Assembly (NCBI RefSeq): GCF_000758525.1
Contig: NZ_CP009241.1
Coordinates: 1,488,001 to 1,552,000 of the forward strand
From: Paenibacillus sp. FSL H7-0357
GTDB lineage: Bacteria > Bacillota > Bacilli > Paenibacillales > Paenibacillaceae
Length of the DNA: 64,000 bases
Direction of reading: 5' to 3'
In this document: positions 27,651-33,318 of the stretch, piece after piece
How the letters are laid out: each line of letters begins with the position of its first letter
How positions within the stretch are numbered: the stretch's first letter is position 1
Position numbers and translations under genes: made by a program
The notes under the pieces: generated by a model
What the model saw: the letters and a program-made list of their open reading frames with translations, nothing else
Database searches by the model: none
Told to the model about the DNA's origin: nothing

Positions 27651-29231
27651 TTATCTTAATGAAGTCACAAGGCTCGAAAGTAATGTCCGAACATCATACT
27701 GGTACTGATTGATTGGCTCAACCGGACGGTTGATGCCGAGCAGGGTGTAGACGGCGATTCTGGCCGCTCTGACGGAATATTCCTCGGTGAACACCACATC
27801 GTCTGGAATTTCGCAATATTGACCGACGAATGCGAGGTTGGTAGAGCCCTCTGGCACGACCAGTGGTCTGTCGCTGCCGAGTCTCGGCATGAACTGGGAA
27901 GTAATATACGGCATCATGCACGGGATACAGTTGGCGGTTGCCATAATCTCAGCTTTATGCTCTTCAAAGTGCAGATGTCCGATCAGCTCTTCCATGATTT
28001 CTGCCCCGGTACAGTCGCTCATTTTCTTCTTGACGAAATCGCCTACCTTGTCAGGATACAGCCCATAGCCCCAGAATACCGTAACATGCTCAGGCTGATC
28101 GCGGAAATGCGGCTGGAACGCCAGCACTACGGACATGAACCAGCTCGAATCCTTGAAGGTGACGAGTGCGCCGGTGCCGGCCCGGTTGCGTGTGAATTTC
28201 TCCATCAGATCAAAGAATTTGGAGTCTTCGAACGTAACGGTGAACGATTCCCACTTGGAGCCGTCGACATGATCGTCGAAGGAAGATGGATTGCCGAGGC
28301 CAGGTTTTTTGGCGGCAATGTTCTCCCAGAGCTTCCACGAGCTGCCTTTGCCGTTGAGACGCGGTGCGGTGCTCATCGAACCGAGGCTGGAGCCTTCGGT
28401 CATGGAGCCGTTAGTGACGATAACCAGATCGCCATCTTTCACTTCAATGACATCTTCCACGCCTTGACGCAGCACGTTCATCTTCGTGACGGTGATGCCG
28501 TCGCCGTCTTTGAACTGTAGGTCAGTTACTGTACATTTCAGCGTAAAGTCTACACCGAACGGCTCCAGATATTTGTGCAGCGGAAGGATGATCGAATCGT
28601 ATTGATTATAAGGTGTGCGGGTGACACCTTCGAGCGTTTGAATTCTTGGGAATTCGTGAATAAAGCGCAGCATGTATCTTTTGAACTCAATGGCGCTGTG
28701 CCAAGGCTGGAAGGCGAAGGTGGTCGCCCACATATACCAGAAATTCGTCTCGAAAAAGTGCGGAGCGAACCAGTCGTTAATCCGGGCCTTGCCCATCTTT
28801 TCCTCTGGTGTAATAATCAGCTTGCCCATTGCCAGCCGGTCGGCCATATCGAACCCCATCGACAATACGTCTTCAACTTCACCCTTGCTGTTCACCAGTC
28901 TGGCGTTGGAATGGGTAGGGTTGGCGTCGTCGAATTCGGTAATTTCTTCCCGGACGGACTTTCCCGGATGGTCGATCGAAGGGATGGTGTTGAGAAGCTC
29001 CCATAAATTCTCATAGGCTTCATCGTTGAGCATCCGTCCGCCGCGAATGACATATCCATGCTCTACACTGCCTGCGCCGTCATTGCTGCCGCCGAGGATC
29101 TTCATCTCTTCAATAATGTGGATGTTCTTTCCCGGAAAATCGCAGTCTCTGACGAGGTATGCCGCACCCGCAAGGGATGCAATCCCGCCTCCGACAAAAT
29201 AAACCTGTTGGTTACCGTACTCTCTTTTCAC
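27651..29231 (-). CDS. oleate hydratase (myosin-cross-reactive-antigen family)
   Basis: FAD-containing enzyme adding water to the cis-9 double bond of unsaturated fatty acids (oleate to 10-hydroxystearate), acting at the membrane surface. The N-terminal dinucleotide-binding fold is VYFVGGGIASLAGAAYLVRD. The substrate/FAD motif GGSNDGAGSVEHGYVIRGGRML follows near residues 47-68, and an RTPYNQYDSIILPLHKYLE segment near 205. At 526 residues it belongs to the shorter subfamily compared with about 590 for some homologues. The first ATG is retained. It lies downstream of the HIT gene on the same strand with a 142-bp gap. Confidence 0.92.
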   Translation of the reverse strand: MKREYGNQQVYFVGGGIASLAGAAYLVRDCDFPGKNIHIIEEMKILGGSNDGAGSVEHGYVIRGGRMLNDEAYENLWELLNTIPSIDHPGKSVREEITEFDDANPTHSNARLVNSKGEVEDVLSMGFDMADRLAMGKLIITPEEKMGKARINDWFAPHFFETNFWYMWATTFAFQPWHSAIEFKRYMLRFIHEFPRIQTLEGVTRTPYNQYDSIILPLHKYLEPFGVDFTLKCTVTDLQFKDGDGITVTKMNVLRQGVEDVIEVKDGDLVIVTNGSMTEGSSLGSMSTAPRLNGKGSSWKLWENIAAKKPGLGNPSSFDDHVDGSKWESFTVTFEDSKFFDLMEKFTRNRAGTGALVTFKDSSWFMSVVLAFQPHFRDQPEHVTVFWGYGLYPDKVGDFVKKKMSDCTGAEIMEELIGHLHFEEHKAEIMATANCIPCMMPYITSQFMPRLGSDRPLVVPEGSTNLAFVGQYCEIPDDVVFTEEYSVRAARIAVYTLLGINRPVEPINQYQYDVRTLLSSLVTSLR

Positions 29232-29247
29232 TGAATACTCGCCTCCA

Positions 29248-29288
29248 TAGGGTTGCTGATTGCTGTTGCTAACCCTAATGTAACCCTA
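29248..29288 (-). promoter_or_regulatory. cluster of TAACCCTA / TAGGGTT repeats upstream of oleate hydratase
   Basis: TAGGGTT (29248-29254), AACCCTA (29271-29277) and AACCCTA (29282-29288) form one inverted and one direct repeat, the direct copies 11 bp apart. This suggests a regulator-binding site in the oleate hydratase leader. The regulator is unknown. Confidence 0.4.
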
Positions 29289-29373
29289 GGCCGGTCCAGA
29301 AGGTATAATCAAAACCGCCAGAGTGTATGGATTTTGGTCACTTTAGGCAAAGTGTATAGTTTTTTTACAGTAA

Positions 29374-29730
29374 TTAACAAGGTTCTACAGGGAAGGAAGG
29401 TGATCTGAGCGGGTCGCCAAAGGCAATATGCCAATGCAGGTGCTTGGAATCCTGATAATTGCCTAAGTTCGTGAGAACTCTGCAAGCTCCGTGCTCTTGC
29501 GTTACCATGGCGGCGACCTGCTTGATAACGCCAATTAACTCAAGAAATAATTCAGTGTCCTCTTCTTCAAGGGTGAGAAGTGAGGAGATATGCTTTTTGG
29601 GGATAGCTACAATATGCACGGGATAAAAAGGTTTCGTATGATAATAGGCTAGCACATTTTCTGTCTCCAGCACTTTATGTACCTGGGTTTTGCCGTTCAA
29701 TACCTCATCGCAATAAAAGTCCTCTGTCAT
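29374..29730 (-). CDS. HIT family nucleotide-binding protein
   Basis: A 118-residue histidine-triad hydrolase or transferase. The catalytic triad HLHWHIAFG lies near residue 98, preceded by VHIVAIPKKHISSLLTLEEED and GACRVLTNLGNYQDSKHLHWH. HIT proteins cleave nucleoside phosphoramidates or related nucleotidyl conjugates. The short form here matches Hint-like proteins. CAGGAGGCC precedes the ATG. It may share a transcript with the downstream oleate hydratase, but the 142-bp gap with repeat motifs suggests separate control. Confidence 0.92.
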   Translation of the reverse strand: MTEDFYCDEVLNGKTQVHKVLETENVLAYYHTKPFYPVHIVAIPKKHISSLLTLEEEDTELFLELIGVIKQVAAMVTQEHGACRVLTNLGNYQDSKHLHWHIAFGDPLRSPSFPVEPC

Positions 29731-29828
29731 GGTGGCCTCCTGATTTTTGCATATTTTTCACTTCAAAGTCTTAAATTCCGCATCGTTTCTGCTATTCTTG
29801 CCCAATAGATTGCCAACTGGATCCAATT

Positions 29829-29923
29829 AGCCAAGTGGAAACGGCTTTGCCGTCCTCAAAAGGACGGTATCCGTTTCAGCGAGAAATAGAAGGATAAGTT
29901 ATCGTGTGAAACATATAAATTCT
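29829..29923 (-). repeat. palindromic intergenic repeat, copy 1 (interrupted by IS110)
   Basis: Bases 29829-29884 are identical over 56 nt to the reverse complement of 58597-58652. The core folds as nested stems: AAACGG/CCGTTT outside and CCGTCCT/AGGACGG inside, with a CAAA loop. After a short variable stretch, homology resumes at 29906-29923 (GTGAAACATATAAATTCT) and, beyond the IS, at 31721-31726 (TATATT). Both parts are contiguous in copy 2. Confidence 0.9.
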
Positions 29924-30036
29924 GGCGTAATATATAATCCTTGTAGAAAAGGAAAATCCCCAGCGACTATCGAAGAAAGAAGCACCTGACAAAGAGCTTC
30001 AATCGTACCTACCCTACCACAGGAGGTTGAAGTCGC

Positions 30037-31410
30037 ATGGGGAAATCCCTACACATTCAAGGCTTAAAGGGAACCAAGTTCAGTCAACAACTACGGGGTG
30101 TTAACCTGGAGCAGGTCCTCATCGTTGCTATCGATGCGGCCAAACTCCACCAAAAAGCCCTGATCTGCAATTATTTCGGCGACATCCTTGCAAAACCCTT
30201 TTTCTTTTCCGTCAATCAATCCGGCATGCAGACTCTATACCATGCCATCGAACAAGCGGTGGCCTCCACTGGGGCCGTACGCCTGTTTTTAGGAATTGAA
30301 GCTACTGGCCATTACTATGAAGATATCGTTAGAGAAATGGCCAAGCAAGGCTACCTCGTCCAGATTCTCAACGCGTATACGACTTTCGAAGAGCGGGCAA
30401 GTGCGCTGAACTGGTGTAAAACCGATGACCTCGATCTAGTCGCTATCGCTCATGCGCTGAAGAGCAATAAAGCCACCGAGTTTCGTTTGGCCGAGGGCCT
30501 TCAACGGCAGTTGCATGTTCTCACCCGGGCCAGACGCTCGGAGATCCGCAAACGCTCCACTCTGCGGATGGAAATCCGAACACTCATGGACATCGTTTGG
30601 CGCGAATTTCAGGGCTATGCCGACCATCAGAATGGGCGGGCTCGGAAAATCAAGGTGTTTAGCAACTTTTGGGGAAAGGCCTCCCTTTTCTTCATGGAGC
30701 ACTATCCACATCCTGCTGCGATTTGTAAGCTGGGGGAAACGGGACTCCGGAGGTTGTCCATCCAGCATAACCTGAAGCTTCGAGTCGCTGCGATTCGCAA
30801 GCTCCTTCTGGTGGCTGCGGAGTCGCTCTCATCTGACGAACAAACGCTTCGTCCCGAACTCCTTCTGCTGCGAATGAAGCTGCAGGATCTTCGCGCCTTT
30901 GACGCTAAGATCGATACGCTTGAGCAGGAGATCGAAGCCCTTTTGCTTCAGACCGACGGGCGGGTTTTACTTACCGTTCCAGGCCTTGGCGTTTCCACTG
31001 CAGCCGAGCTCTACGCTGAGATTGGCGATGTGTCCCATTACACTCATGCCGGACAGTTGATTAAGAAAGCAGGAACGAATCCCGTCGTTAAGCAAACGGG
31101 CGGAAGTGCCGGATCTTATGGAAAAATTTCCAAGCAAGGGAACTCTCATTTGCGCTATGTTGCCTACTTAGCCGGTCGAAGCCTCTGCCTGCATAACCCG
31201 GATCTCAAACCGTTTTACGAGCGGTTAAAGAGCCGCGGGAAGCATCCTCGCTCCATTTTTGTAGCTATGGGGAATAAGATGCTGAAAATTGCATTTGCGA
31301 TGCTACGTGACAAGAAGCCCTTTCTCTCCACCAAGCCCTCTTGTCCGTTTGCCAAGGAGATCAATAAGAAGCTCCGTTTTAGCTGTTTCATTACGCTGGA
31401 TGTTGCCTGA
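30037..31410 (+). CDS. IS110-family DEDD recombinase/transposase
   Basis: A 457-residue transposase that inserts DNA without a DDE mechanism. The N-terminal RuvC-like domain has Asp33 (VAIDAAKLH), Glu88 (LGIEATGHYYED) and Asp130/Asp133 (CKTDDLDLVAIAHAL). A helical coiled linker of about 150 residues follows (LRMKLQDLRAFDAKIDTLEQ). The C-terminal Tnp2 domain starts at LLTVPGLGVSTAAELYAE and includes TGGSAGSYGKISKQGNS, where the catalytic serine is expected. The frame is intact, so the element may be active. AGGAGGTTGAAG precedes the ATG. Confidence 0.95.
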   Translation: MGKSLHIQGLKGTKFSQQLRGVNLEQVLIVAIDAAKLHQKALICNYFGDILAKPFFFSVNQSGMQTLYHAIEQAVASTGAVRLFLGIEATGHYYEDIVREMAKQGYLVQILNAYTTFEERASALNWCKTDDLDLVAIAHALKSNKATEFRLAEGLQRQLHVLTRARRSEIRKRSTLRMEIRTLMDIVWREFQGYADHQNGRARKIKVFSNFWGKASLFFMEHYPHPAAICKLGETGLRRLSIQHNLKLRVAAIRKLLLVAAESLSSDEQTLRPELLLLRMKLQDLRAFDAKIDTLEQEIEALLLQTDGRVLLTVPGLGVSTAAELYAEIGDVSHYTHAGQLIKKAGTNPVVKQTGGSAGSYGKISKQGNSHLRYVAYLAGRSLCLHNPDLKPFYERLKSRGKHPRSIFVAMGNKMLKIAFAMLRDKKPFLSTKPSCPFAKEINKKLRFSCFITLDVA

Positions 31411-31430
31411 ACAAGCCTGAAATGACTGAA

Positions 31431-31582
31431 CCGGTGGGTCTGGGACTGAGGGAAGATCGGATTAAATTCTAGAGGCCCAGACCTCGTAAATAAGCCTTAT
31501 CCACCTCGTCCTGTTAATGCGAATTGTACGTTAGATCTCGATCTGCACTCAGCCAGATTGCATAACAGGATTGAACACGAGG
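31431..31582 (+). ncRNA. candidate IS110 bridge RNA (target and donor binding loops)
   Basis: Two structured loops lie in the 3' non-coding end. Loop 1 has an outer GGTGG (31433-31437) with CCACC (31501-31505) and an inner hairpin GAGG/CCTC (31472-31485). On its left it carries TAAATTCT (31463-31470), identical to the left target plus core (29916-29923). On its right it carries TAAATAAG (31487-31494), whose AATAAG end is complementary for 5 bases to core plus right target. Loop 2 is closed by CCTGTTAATGC/GCATAACAGG (31510-31569). It has GTACGTT (31526-31532), against the right IS end GTACGCT, and GCCAG (31552-31556), complementary to CTGGC at the left IS end. An outer CCTCGT/ACGAGG encloses loop 2. 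Confidence 0.7.
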
Positions 31583-31745
31583 CTATTTCCTTTCAAGTTC
31601 GAGACCTTCCGGTTCTGTCCATCGCTCTTCGTCAGTTGCTAACTATTTTTTGGAAAACAAAGAGTTAGGTGTGTTTGAGTTGCTTTTATAGTCAGTTTTA
31701 GCTTGTTGACATAGTACGCTTATATTTCCAAAAAAGCTGCGCACC

Positions 31746-32321
31746 CTAAGGTAACGACAGCTTCTTCTCGTATTTATGCAGCGCCTTCAGAAAATTCCCT
31801 TCAATCAGCACACTGAGCTGCTCAATCATATGCTTCGGCTGATCCTTCATCCCGTCGCGCATCCACTGAATGATGAGTCCGGTAAAGGCGAGAGTGTAGA
31901 AGTTGGCGATGAACCGCTTGTCTTCGGCACTAACCTCCATTCCGCTTGACAGCTCCTGAATGACGCCCATAACCAGGCCGTTGGTCACGTCGTACAGATA
32001 AGCATCAAGGTGGGATCTGCCGAGAGAATCCAGCGTATTGCAGCAGAAGGTTCTATTGCTCTCAATATAACAAAAGATTCTGTAGAACCCGTCCGTCCAT
32101 GTGTTGTAGCTCCGGTACTCAGCAATGCTCTCTACCGCCTCTGTCTTGTAAATCCAGCCCAGCAGCTCAAAAATATCCTGAAAATGATAGTAGAACGTCT
32201 GCCTGTTCAGCCCGCAATCGTCGACAAGATGCTTTACCGAGATTTTATTGAGCGGGGTGTGCTCCATTAAGTGCTTTAACGACTGGGCCAGCGCTTTTTT
32301 GGTCAAATAGGAAGTGGACAT
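31746..32321 (-). CDS. TetR/AcrR-family regulator (DhaS-like)
   Basis: 191 residues. The N-terminal helix-turn-helix comprises ALAQSLKHLMEHTPLNKISVKHLVDDCGLNRQTFYYHF, with recognition helix GLNRQTFYYHF. The C-terminal part (DGFYRIFCYIESNRTFCCNTL, NFYTLAFTGLIIQWMRDGMKD) resembles the DhaS/YcnC-type TetR C-terminal domain rather than the drug-binding type. Divergent or adjacent targets are not evident; the small membrane protein gene at 32384-32782 is immediately upstream on the same strand. The IS110 element ends 25 bp beyond its stop codon, so its 3' end and any terminator may have been altered by the insertion. Confidence 0.88.
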   Translation of the reverse strand: MSTSYLTKKALAQSLKHLMEHTPLNKISVKHLVDDCGLNRQTFYYHFQDIFELLGWIYKTEAVESIAEYRSYNTWTDGFYRIFCYIESNRTFCCNTLDSLGRSHLDAYLYDVTNGLVMGVIQELSSGMEVSAEDKRFIANFYTLAFTGLIIQWMRDGMKDQPKHMIEQLSVLIEGNFLKALHKYEKKLSLP

Positions 32322-32383
32322 GGCAATATCACCTCATCATTTGTTCGGATTATTCAATTGTTTCGCCTGTGGACCCCGTGGAT

Positions 32384-32782
32384 CTAAGGTTTCCGCAGCT
32401 TCCTGGTCAGCAGATAACTGCCTTCGACGATAAGACCCAGAACGAAGCCGCCCGCTGTAAACACGATCAAAGACAGAAATCCCGCAAGATCCTCCCAGCC
32501 GGACATGTCCTGGTAAGTGTATTGATACATGGTGCCCAGTCCGAAAACAATGCCAATGGTGCTGATCAGCCATACCAGCTTGGCGCCAAACCACCCGAAG
32601 CTGTGCAGAATTCCGGAGACTACAAGGGCGAGCGCCGCAAAACGGGCAAAGACCGGAAGGTCGAAGTTTTCCCCGAGCAGCAGAAACCGGTGCAGAGCCA
32701 GCAGCAGCCAGAGAATCAAGGTATAAATCAGGTACCAGACGAACCAGCGATTGCTTTTGGCGGGAGGCAGGAACTTTAACAT
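32384..32782 (-). CDS. small four-helix membrane protein, unknown function
   Basis: 132 residues with four predicted transmembrane helices: FVWYLIYTLILWLLLALHRFLLL, FARFAALALVVSGILHSFGWF, LVWLISTIGIVFGLG and LAGFLSLIVFTAGGFVLGLIVEG. The termini are basic (LPPAKSNR and LLTRKLRKP), suggesting cytoplasmic ends. I recognise no family. GAGGTGA lies 5 bases before the ATG. It sits between a TetR regulator and an unknown gene on the same strand, 62 bp from the former, so the TetR protein may control it. Confidence 0.75.
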   Translation of the reverse strand: MLKFLPPAKSNRWFVWYLIYTLILWLLLALHRFLLLGENFDLPVFARFAALALVVSGILHSFGWFGAKLVWLISTIGIVFGLGTMYQYTYQDMSGWEDLAGFLSLIVFTAGGFVLGLIVEGSYLLTRKLRKP

Positions 32783-32802
32783 GGCTTCACCTCACTGTGA
32801 TA

Positions 32803-33318
32803 TTAGACCTTCTCCAGTTCCTCAGCGCTTCTAAGCAGAAACTCGAGCAGCTCCGGCAGATCGTCCATTTGCTCTTCATTAATTTGTCTCTTGAATGCGA
32901 GAGAGACGCAGCAGGTGTATAGGCCGCTATTGCTGCCGAAGGGGAAGCTTAGCGATTGCACGGGAGTAAGCTCCGGGCCCCAAATCCCGGTGAGAATCTG
33001 TTCGATAGCAGAGCATTGGGTGGGGATATCCCCGATTTCCAAATGAAAACGCAGCAGTAGATTACAGCCGGGAACGGAATCCGGGACTTCCAGTATTTCA
33101 TCACTGAGATCCTTCACCGACGAGTGGAGAACCAGTTCACTTGTTACCTTGCTGCTGCCGGCCAGCTTGAAGGAGAGGGTGAATTCCCTGGACATCAACG
33201 CCAGGTCCAGCAGATCGGAACGGTTCGTGACTACCAGAATTCCATCCAGATTATCATAGTCATAGATCTGATTCTCTAAGGAAACCTTAATATTCTCAAA
33301 GACAGTAGGGTGGAACAC
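32803..33318 (-). CDS. protein of unknown function
   Basis: I do not recognise this protein. About 171 residues, acidic, with no membrane helix or signal. Features are SLENQIYDYDNLDGILVVTN, a Cys in VPGCNLLLRFHLEIGD, a FPFGSNSGLYTCCVSLAF stretch with two adjacent cysteines and an acidic helical C terminus (LPELLEFLLRSAEELEKV). The frame is open back to a TTG at 33396. Starting there would put the first codons over the divergent TTGACA promoter of the ABC operon. A GTG at 33318 with AAGAAGGTG 6 bases upstream is a better start. Confidence 0.6.
   Translation of the reverse strand: MFHPTVFENIKVSLENQIYDYDNLDGILVVTNRSDLLDLALMSREFTLSFKLAGSSKVTSELVLHSSVKDLSDEILEVPDSVPGCNLLLRFHLEIGDIPTQCSAIEQILTGIWGPELTPVQSLSFPFGSNSGLYTCCVSLAFKRQINEEQMDDLPELLEFLLRSAEELEKV

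Follow-up and report, generated by a model that had tools for sequence, protein, structure and literature searches.

A Very Probable Bridge RNA in the 3′ Non-Coding End of an IS110-Family Element of Paenibacillus sp. FSL H7-0357

Introduction

How does an IS110-family element find its insertion site? The locus analyzed here raises this question for a transposase gene and its flanking non-coding DNA in Paenibacillus sp. FSL H7-0357, within a stretch of 64,000 nucleotides (contig NZ_CP009241.1, positions 1,488,001 to 1,552,000; hereafter the window, whose numbering is used throughout). A prediction made from the letters alone had placed a bridge RNA, with one target-binding and one donor-binding loop, in the non-coding end downstream of this gene. 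In our analysis, this 3′ non-coding end very probably encodes such an RNA and thereby steers insertion, since relatives that have landed elsewhere share its fold and carry different guides.

Results

The Element Occupies One Type of Site in One Orientation

Six copies of the element were found in the host genome (7.69 Mb, one contig), one of them with an internal TGA. The ends were set by aligning the surroundings of the copies, which are identical in the order ...CATATAAATT-CT, element, ...GTACG-CT-TAT. This confirmed the element ends and the core CT of the original prediction, with CT at both junctions; the boundaries 29922–31718, where the core is counted at the left instead, are equally valid. 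All six copies lie in the same register and the same orientation at ATATAAATT-CT-TAT within an interspersed hairpin repeat, and they look like separate insertions since their flanks differ outside the shared repeat. Site-specific insertion in a fixed orientation at a 2-bp core, a trait of the IS110 family, was thus observed in 6/6 copies, and uninterrupted sites are also present.

The target corresponds to the end of this repeat, which spans about 100 bases and contains a GC-rich hairpin. Within the host genome, 70 matches to a conserved 25-base part of the repeat were counted (up to three mismatches), and the repeat was found in 33 of the 61 genus genomes examined, host included, with up to 216 copies. 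The uninterrupted 18-base target occurs exactly 16 times in the host genome; by manual count, 28 of the 30 listed empty sites fall at the repeat end, three of them shortened or deletion-bearing. By eye, the strand that carries the repeat mostly switches between the two chromosome halves, and a terminator-like hairpin often adjoins the repeat.

Guide Matches in the Window Element

All four matches on which the original prediction was built were recovered. The left target guide TAAATTCT is identical to 29916–29923, that is, left flank plus core CT, while the right target guide TAAATAAG forms five contiguous pairs with CTTAT (31719–31723), the sixth position being mismatched. On the donor side, GTACGTT matches GTACGCT (31714–31720) with one G-U, and GCCAG is complementary to CTGGC (29922–29926).

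That these matches would be hard to explain by chance held only in part. In the 3′ non-coding region, the highest-scoring ordered set of four matches attained 20, compared to a mean of 13.1 in dinucleotide shuffles; 1/1500 shuffles and 1/822 control stretches of real window sequence did as well. When wobble was allowed, a score of 25 was reached by 9/1500 shuffles and 1/822 controls, so that chance is unlikely but not overwhelmingly so, and the donor matches are unconvincing alone. Further, the optimum without wobble contained a left-donor match other than GTACGTT, and that with wobble differed from the prediction on both donor sides; the single sequence therefore makes the left-target 8-mer credible and little else. 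This 8-nt match carries most of the signal in the single sequence, whose significance is moderate, and the 5-nt right-target match is the weakest part of the window copy.

Target Guides Differ between Relatives Together with Their Flanks

Relatives were sought with the window transposase in overlapping genus, family, order and class genome sets. Whole-genome searches gave hits in 1/100 genus genomes (1e-100, the host itself), in 2/394 family genomes (1e-90) and, at 1e-60, in 5/344 genomes of the order, 4/104 of another family and 5/398 of the class; among viral contigs and plasmids (plasmids at E 1e-40) no relatives were detected. Clade A comprises the window element, L017–L020 (Paenibacillus records, 73–82% identical in the best segment) and L021 (a Pelotomaculum assembly, 56%). 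Clade B (43–46% identical) came from the class-wide search and was enlarged by a genus-wide search and by L085, which was found later. Rows were dropped as duplicates (L054–L058, L064, L065, L067, L070, L072, L080–L084, L086–L091) or as incomplete (L022 and L023, without the 3′ end; L062, in which the stretch with both target guides is missing). L063 and L069 stood outside the permutations, as the script patterns missed one side, and L075 was omitted from the RNA alignment only. Complete 3′ ends share a common layout after the gene, namely left guide, GAGG-hairpin-CCTC (GGGG-CCCC in L071), right guide and donor stem-loop.

Guides were scored as Watson–Crick matches over 8 bases. Left scores were 8, 6, 6, 8, 8 and 7 for the window element and L017–L021, and 7, 7, 2, 7, 6, 7, 7 and 6 for L059, L060, L061, L066, L068, L073, L074 and L075. 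The corresponding right scores were 6, 3, 4, 4, 4 and 8, and 6, 8, 5, 7, 7, 5, 7, 7 and 6, the latter series including L071 after L068. With the core excluded, left guides matched their own flanks at 69 positions versus a permuted mean of 34.8 (14 elements), and right guides at 59 versus 33.6 (15 elements). No permutation was as good on either side (0/100000; 1/100000 with wobble), and within clade B 705/100000 on the left and 345/100000 on the right were.

Individual relatives illustrate these changes. L019 and L020 have similar RNAs, yet their guides read ATACTTTCT and ATAAATTCT, respectively, each also present in the element's own flank. In L021, the left guide ATTTTCCT faces ACTTTCCT (one G-U) and the right guide is exact over 8 nt, as it is in L060, while L066 has GGTGCCT in both guide and flank. 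By eye, L063 carries AGGTACCT in both guide and flank; L069 has AGGTACCT versus AGATACCT on the left and CTGTGCAA in both on the right; and L085 has TTTTCCCT versus GCTTACCT on the left and CTGTGTAA versus CTGTGTAC on the right. Retention of one guide despite different flanks, which would have contradicted the original prediction, was approached by L018, a partial counter-example whose guide retains AAATTCT next to the flank TAAAATCT (6/8).

The RNA Fold Is Conserved

RNAalifold applied to 16 elements yielded five helices, with standard pairs in 95.3% of 528 cells and two-sided changes in 20/33 pairs. When the partners were moved by one to three columns as a slide control, 34–44% of the cells were paired; the structure is thus conserved among relatives, as the original prediction requires. 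The number of further pair types was not above that of shuffles (490/500 as high). Because this measure shows no excess and shuffle controls are inflated by relatedness, the better argument comes from the slide control and from the two-sided exchanges: three helix-4 pairs are exchanged on both sides in 8/16 sequences, and 11 of the 13 outer-stem pairs in at least two.

For the whole 3′ end, the minimum-energy fold (z −3.07) broadly agrees with the consensus fold. The original description of two consecutive structured loops was half right: the donor part folds alone (31501–31583, z −2.99), but the target part (31431–31500, z −1.27) does not, and by itself adopts another fold. Both target guides flank the short GAGG/CCUC hairpin, inside a long outer stem that closes the target loop. 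Because this stem encloses both loops, the interval first proposed (31431–31582) falls about 30 bases short at the 3′ side, the conserved structured part of the putative RNA reaching approximately 31612. The IS621-like order of target loop and then donor loop was upheld in the aligned relatives.

The loop of the target hairpin, CCCAGACC (31476–31483), is complementary to part of the 5′ arm of the outer stem, GGTCTGGG (31437–31444). Given this complementarity and the different fold of the lone target part, the RNA could adopt an alternative fold. By eye, GGAU/AUCC is a candidate basal stem of the target loop in clade A. A search of 29000–33000 against Rfam returned a single match, sX5, within the gene and far under the cut-off.

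Donor Guides and Handshake Bases

Left donor guides read GTACG, AAACG or ATACG and track right ends with the same letters; right donor guides read GCCAG with CTGGC or CTGGT, and AATAG with CTATT. Permutations as high numbered 9/50000 (left) and 17/50000 (right) without wobble, and 759 and 14 with wobble. As the donor script used ACGT and the words GCCAG or AATAG as anchors, only the letters around these anchors test anything; for L061, the script also took the wrong letters as right donor guide. All 16 aligned RNAs carry ACGT, whose U therefore faces the core C, with the exception of L061, where the right end has T.

Strand exchange in IS621 brings the base that follows each right guide into pairing with the other DNA, as described in PMC11208158. 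These handshake bases were examined after the guide alignment, the rule itself being taken from that description. In the target loop, an invariant C after the right target guide fits the donor G before CT in 15/15 elements. Where the target has T before CT (five elements), the donor-loop base is A; where it has C (L021 and clade B), this base is G. The donor-loop base fits in 13/14, L061 being the misfit. The second handshake position fits in 13/15 in the target loop. The RNA thus displays what is expected of a bridge RNA, namely two loops, for target and donor, both combining a guide for the bottom strand with one for the top strand (the right target guide being weak in close relatives), and handshake bases that pair with the non-cognate DNA.

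The Transposase

Both Pfam matches of the transposase (PF01548, E 4.4e-16; PF02371, E 5.9e-19) were above the curated cut-off, and the NCBIfam model for IS110 RNA-guided transposases scored 169.8 bits against a cut-off of 140. The DEDD residues D33, E88, D130 and D133 were invariant in 22 aligned rows, and ISCro4 and IS621 were closest to the predicted transposase model. Residue 354 (31096–31098), aligned with S241 of IS621, is threonine. At this position, 34 of 116 proteins (the window transposase and those 115 of 120 listed homologues that have 400–500 aa) carry Thr and 82 Ser, and a quick tree implies at least four changes. Judging from the five identical copies, Thr at the nucleophile position seems to be functional; it was dropped as a novelty, as IS4321 has Thr and PMC11187229 mentions TG.

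Promoters, Leader and Other Observations

The joined ends of the window element give TTGACA-18-TATAAT, and 13/15 elements have such a junction. With this promoter-like pair, transcription from a circle through the transposase gene (tnp) into the RNA appears plausible.

The transposase leader (29924–30060) contains a strong hairpin (z −3.96; as low in 0/200 shuffles) that includes both the AGGAGG site and the ATG (TCCCCAGCGACT, 29957–29968, versus AGTCGCATGGGGA, 30031–30043). Its arms are largely kept in eight aligned sequences (window and seven relatives), which suggests translational control. Among the relatives, the clade B element L061 lies directly at TTGACATAGTACG-CT, resembling the right end of a window-clade element. 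Two further IS110-family elements, 23–24% identical, reside in the host genome (L007–L010, four copies; L011–L012, two copies), with common non-coding stretches on either side of the gene.

Table 1. Positions of the element, its putative bridge RNA and associated features in the window.
Feature	Positions	Strand	Remark
IS110-family element, including right-end core CT	29924..31720	+	Identity of the six genomic copies stops there on both sides
Left part of interspersed hairpin repeat (target), ending in left target ATATAAATT-CT	29832..29923	+	
Core CT, left junction	29922..29923	+	
TATAAT, −10-like half of putative circle-junction promoter	29933..29938	+	
Transposase/recombinase, 457 aa, DEDD_Tnp_IS110 (PF01548) and Transposase_20 (PF02371)	30037..31410	+	
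Putative bridge RNA, conserved structured part including both outer-stem arms	31431..31612	+	
Outer stem P1, 5′ arm	31431..31447	+	Pairs with 31596–31612; two-sided changes in 11/13 pairs
Left target guide TAAATTCT	31463..31470	+	8/8 with left flank
Hairpin GAGG/CCUC between target guides	31472..31485	+	100% of cells paired; one pair with two-sided change
Right target guide TAAATAAG	31487..31494	+	6/8, five contiguous from core
Target-loop handshake base C	31495	+	Pairs with donor G before CT
Donor-binding stem-loop, helices P3–P5	31504..31582	+	
Left donor guide GTACGTT	31526..31532	+	
Right donor guide GCCAG	31552..31556	+	
Donor-loop handshake base A	31557	+	Pairs with target T before CT
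Outer stem P1, 3′ arm	31596..31612	+	
TTGACA, −35-like half of putative circle-junction promoter	31706..31711	+	
Core CT, right junction	31719..31720	+	
Core and right target (CTTATATTTCC)	31719..31729	+	

Discussion

The guides, the conserved fold, the guide changes with flanks and ends between groups, and insertion at one site in one orientation form the direct basis for a bridge RNA here, and the RNA–protein complex, the circle, the cleavage chemistry and the strand exchange are modelled on IS621. By this analogy, the element would circularize and the recombinase would then bind the bridge RNA. At an empty copy of the repeat, the left guide of the target loop would pair with the bottom strand of ATAAATT-CT and the right guide with the top strand of CT-TAT, and the donor loop would pair likewise with the joined ends GTACG-CT-GGC. 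Cleavage beside CT, strand exchange aided by the handshake bases and religation would place the element, always in the same orientation, at the hairpin-repeat end.

Several observations weigh against this interpretation. Within clade A, the right-side permutation was not significant (24434/100000) and the left one modest (3444/100000), and within subclade B1, a hand-typed set, neither side was significant (approximately 0.10 left and 0.24 right). The right guides of L017, L018, L019 and L020, four of the six clade A elements, pair at 3–4 of 8 positions, L061 fits at 2/8 on the left, and the left guide has CA (L017, L073–L075) or GT (L068) where CT is expected. Further, the donor guide changes are few and located between clades, and in the donor loop a fit at the second handshake position is seen in 1/14. 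No sigma-70-type promoter was found before the RNA in 31100–31800, although with 0.6 expected in shuffles this says little. Overall, the association between guides and flanks is strong between groups with different targets, and suggestive or absent within narrow groups.

Could the protein recognize the hairpin repeat itself, the 3′ end being a structured untranslated region and the guide matches a product of chance? All six copies adjoin the repeat and the single-sequence significance is moderate, as this explanation would have it. Nevertheless, guides vary together with flanks in relatives at other targets, two-sided changes preserve the fold and the handshake base tracks the target, which leaves it hardly credible. 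An improbable explanation, if less so than the former, is a seekRNA of the IS1111 type, whereby the RNA would read the target only and the protein would recognize the ends via subterminal inverted repeats. The location of the RNA downstream of the gene, as in IS1111 elements (PMC11187229), and an exact 7-bp subterminal inverted repeat in 7/9 clade B elements are in line with it. However, the exact repeat of the window element does not exceed 5 bp (GCGTA; by eye 9/11 with two mismatches), the bottom-strand match precedes the top-strand match, which is the order of the IS110 example and not that of IS1111, and the donor guides vary together with the ends, while the handshake base tracks the target.

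The IS1111 pattern comprises transposases of 330–350 aa with the motif GL-P----S(t)G, as seen in IS4321 of that group (334 aa, GLVPRQYSTG), whereas the window transposase has 457 aa and GTNPVVKQTG. Subterminal inverted repeats of 7–17 bp also belong to this pattern; counting exact repeats, the longest are of 5 bp in the window element and of 7 bp in 7/9 clade B elements. The bottom-strand match lying 5′ of the top-strand match conforms to the IS110 group, the vast majority of which carry the bridge RNA in the left (5′) end, in contrast to the RNA described here, at 31431–31612 downstream of tnp. Placement by a transposase tree was attempted and failed: the element and its relatives formed their own clade (100/100), and the deeper forks were unsupported (41/76), with long branches and one labelled IS1111-group reference only.

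Compared to IS621, as described in PMC11208160 and PMC11208158, the system shares the CT core, the target loop followed by the donor loop, the handshake base, left guides reading the bottom strand and right guides the top strand, the DEDD plus Tnp recombinase fold, and, as is reported elsewhere, a target in a repeated extragenic palindrome. It differs in the location of the RNA at the 3′ end, in the single long outer stem enclosing both loops and in its 457-aa recombinase with Thr at the S241-aligned position. In IS1111-group seekRNA elements such as ISEc11 and ISPa11 (PMC11187229), the RNA likewise follows tnp; REP sequences are targets of ISPa11 too, and IS4321 shares Thr-Gly at the motif. 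Elements of this group differ in the reverse order of their target matches, in the size and GL-P motif of their transposases and in subterminal inverted repeats longer than the exact one of the window element. PMC11187229 also mentions IS110-type elements whose non-coding region lies downstream, which are alike in the side of that region, in contrast to ISEc21, the single IS110 element tested in that paper, whose non-coding region lies upstream.

Whether these elements form a distinct Bacillota branch of IS110-type bridge systems is, in our judgement, evenly balanced. Such a branch would combine the IS621 logic and handshake with an RNA at the 3′ end, one outer stem around both loops and a GAGG/CCUC hairpin separating the two target guides. 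Some of its members would have Thr where the nucleophilic Ser is otherwise found, and several natural retargetings would make the branch a ready collection of recombinases that differ in target.

Bridge RNAs are the basis of programmable insertion, excision and inversion of DNA. Since its guide code can be read, its members sit at different targets and one handshake base tracks the target, this family tests the rules of IS621 in a distant branch, where the RNA occupies the opposite end of the element, and it may provide candidate recombinases from Gram-positive bacteria.
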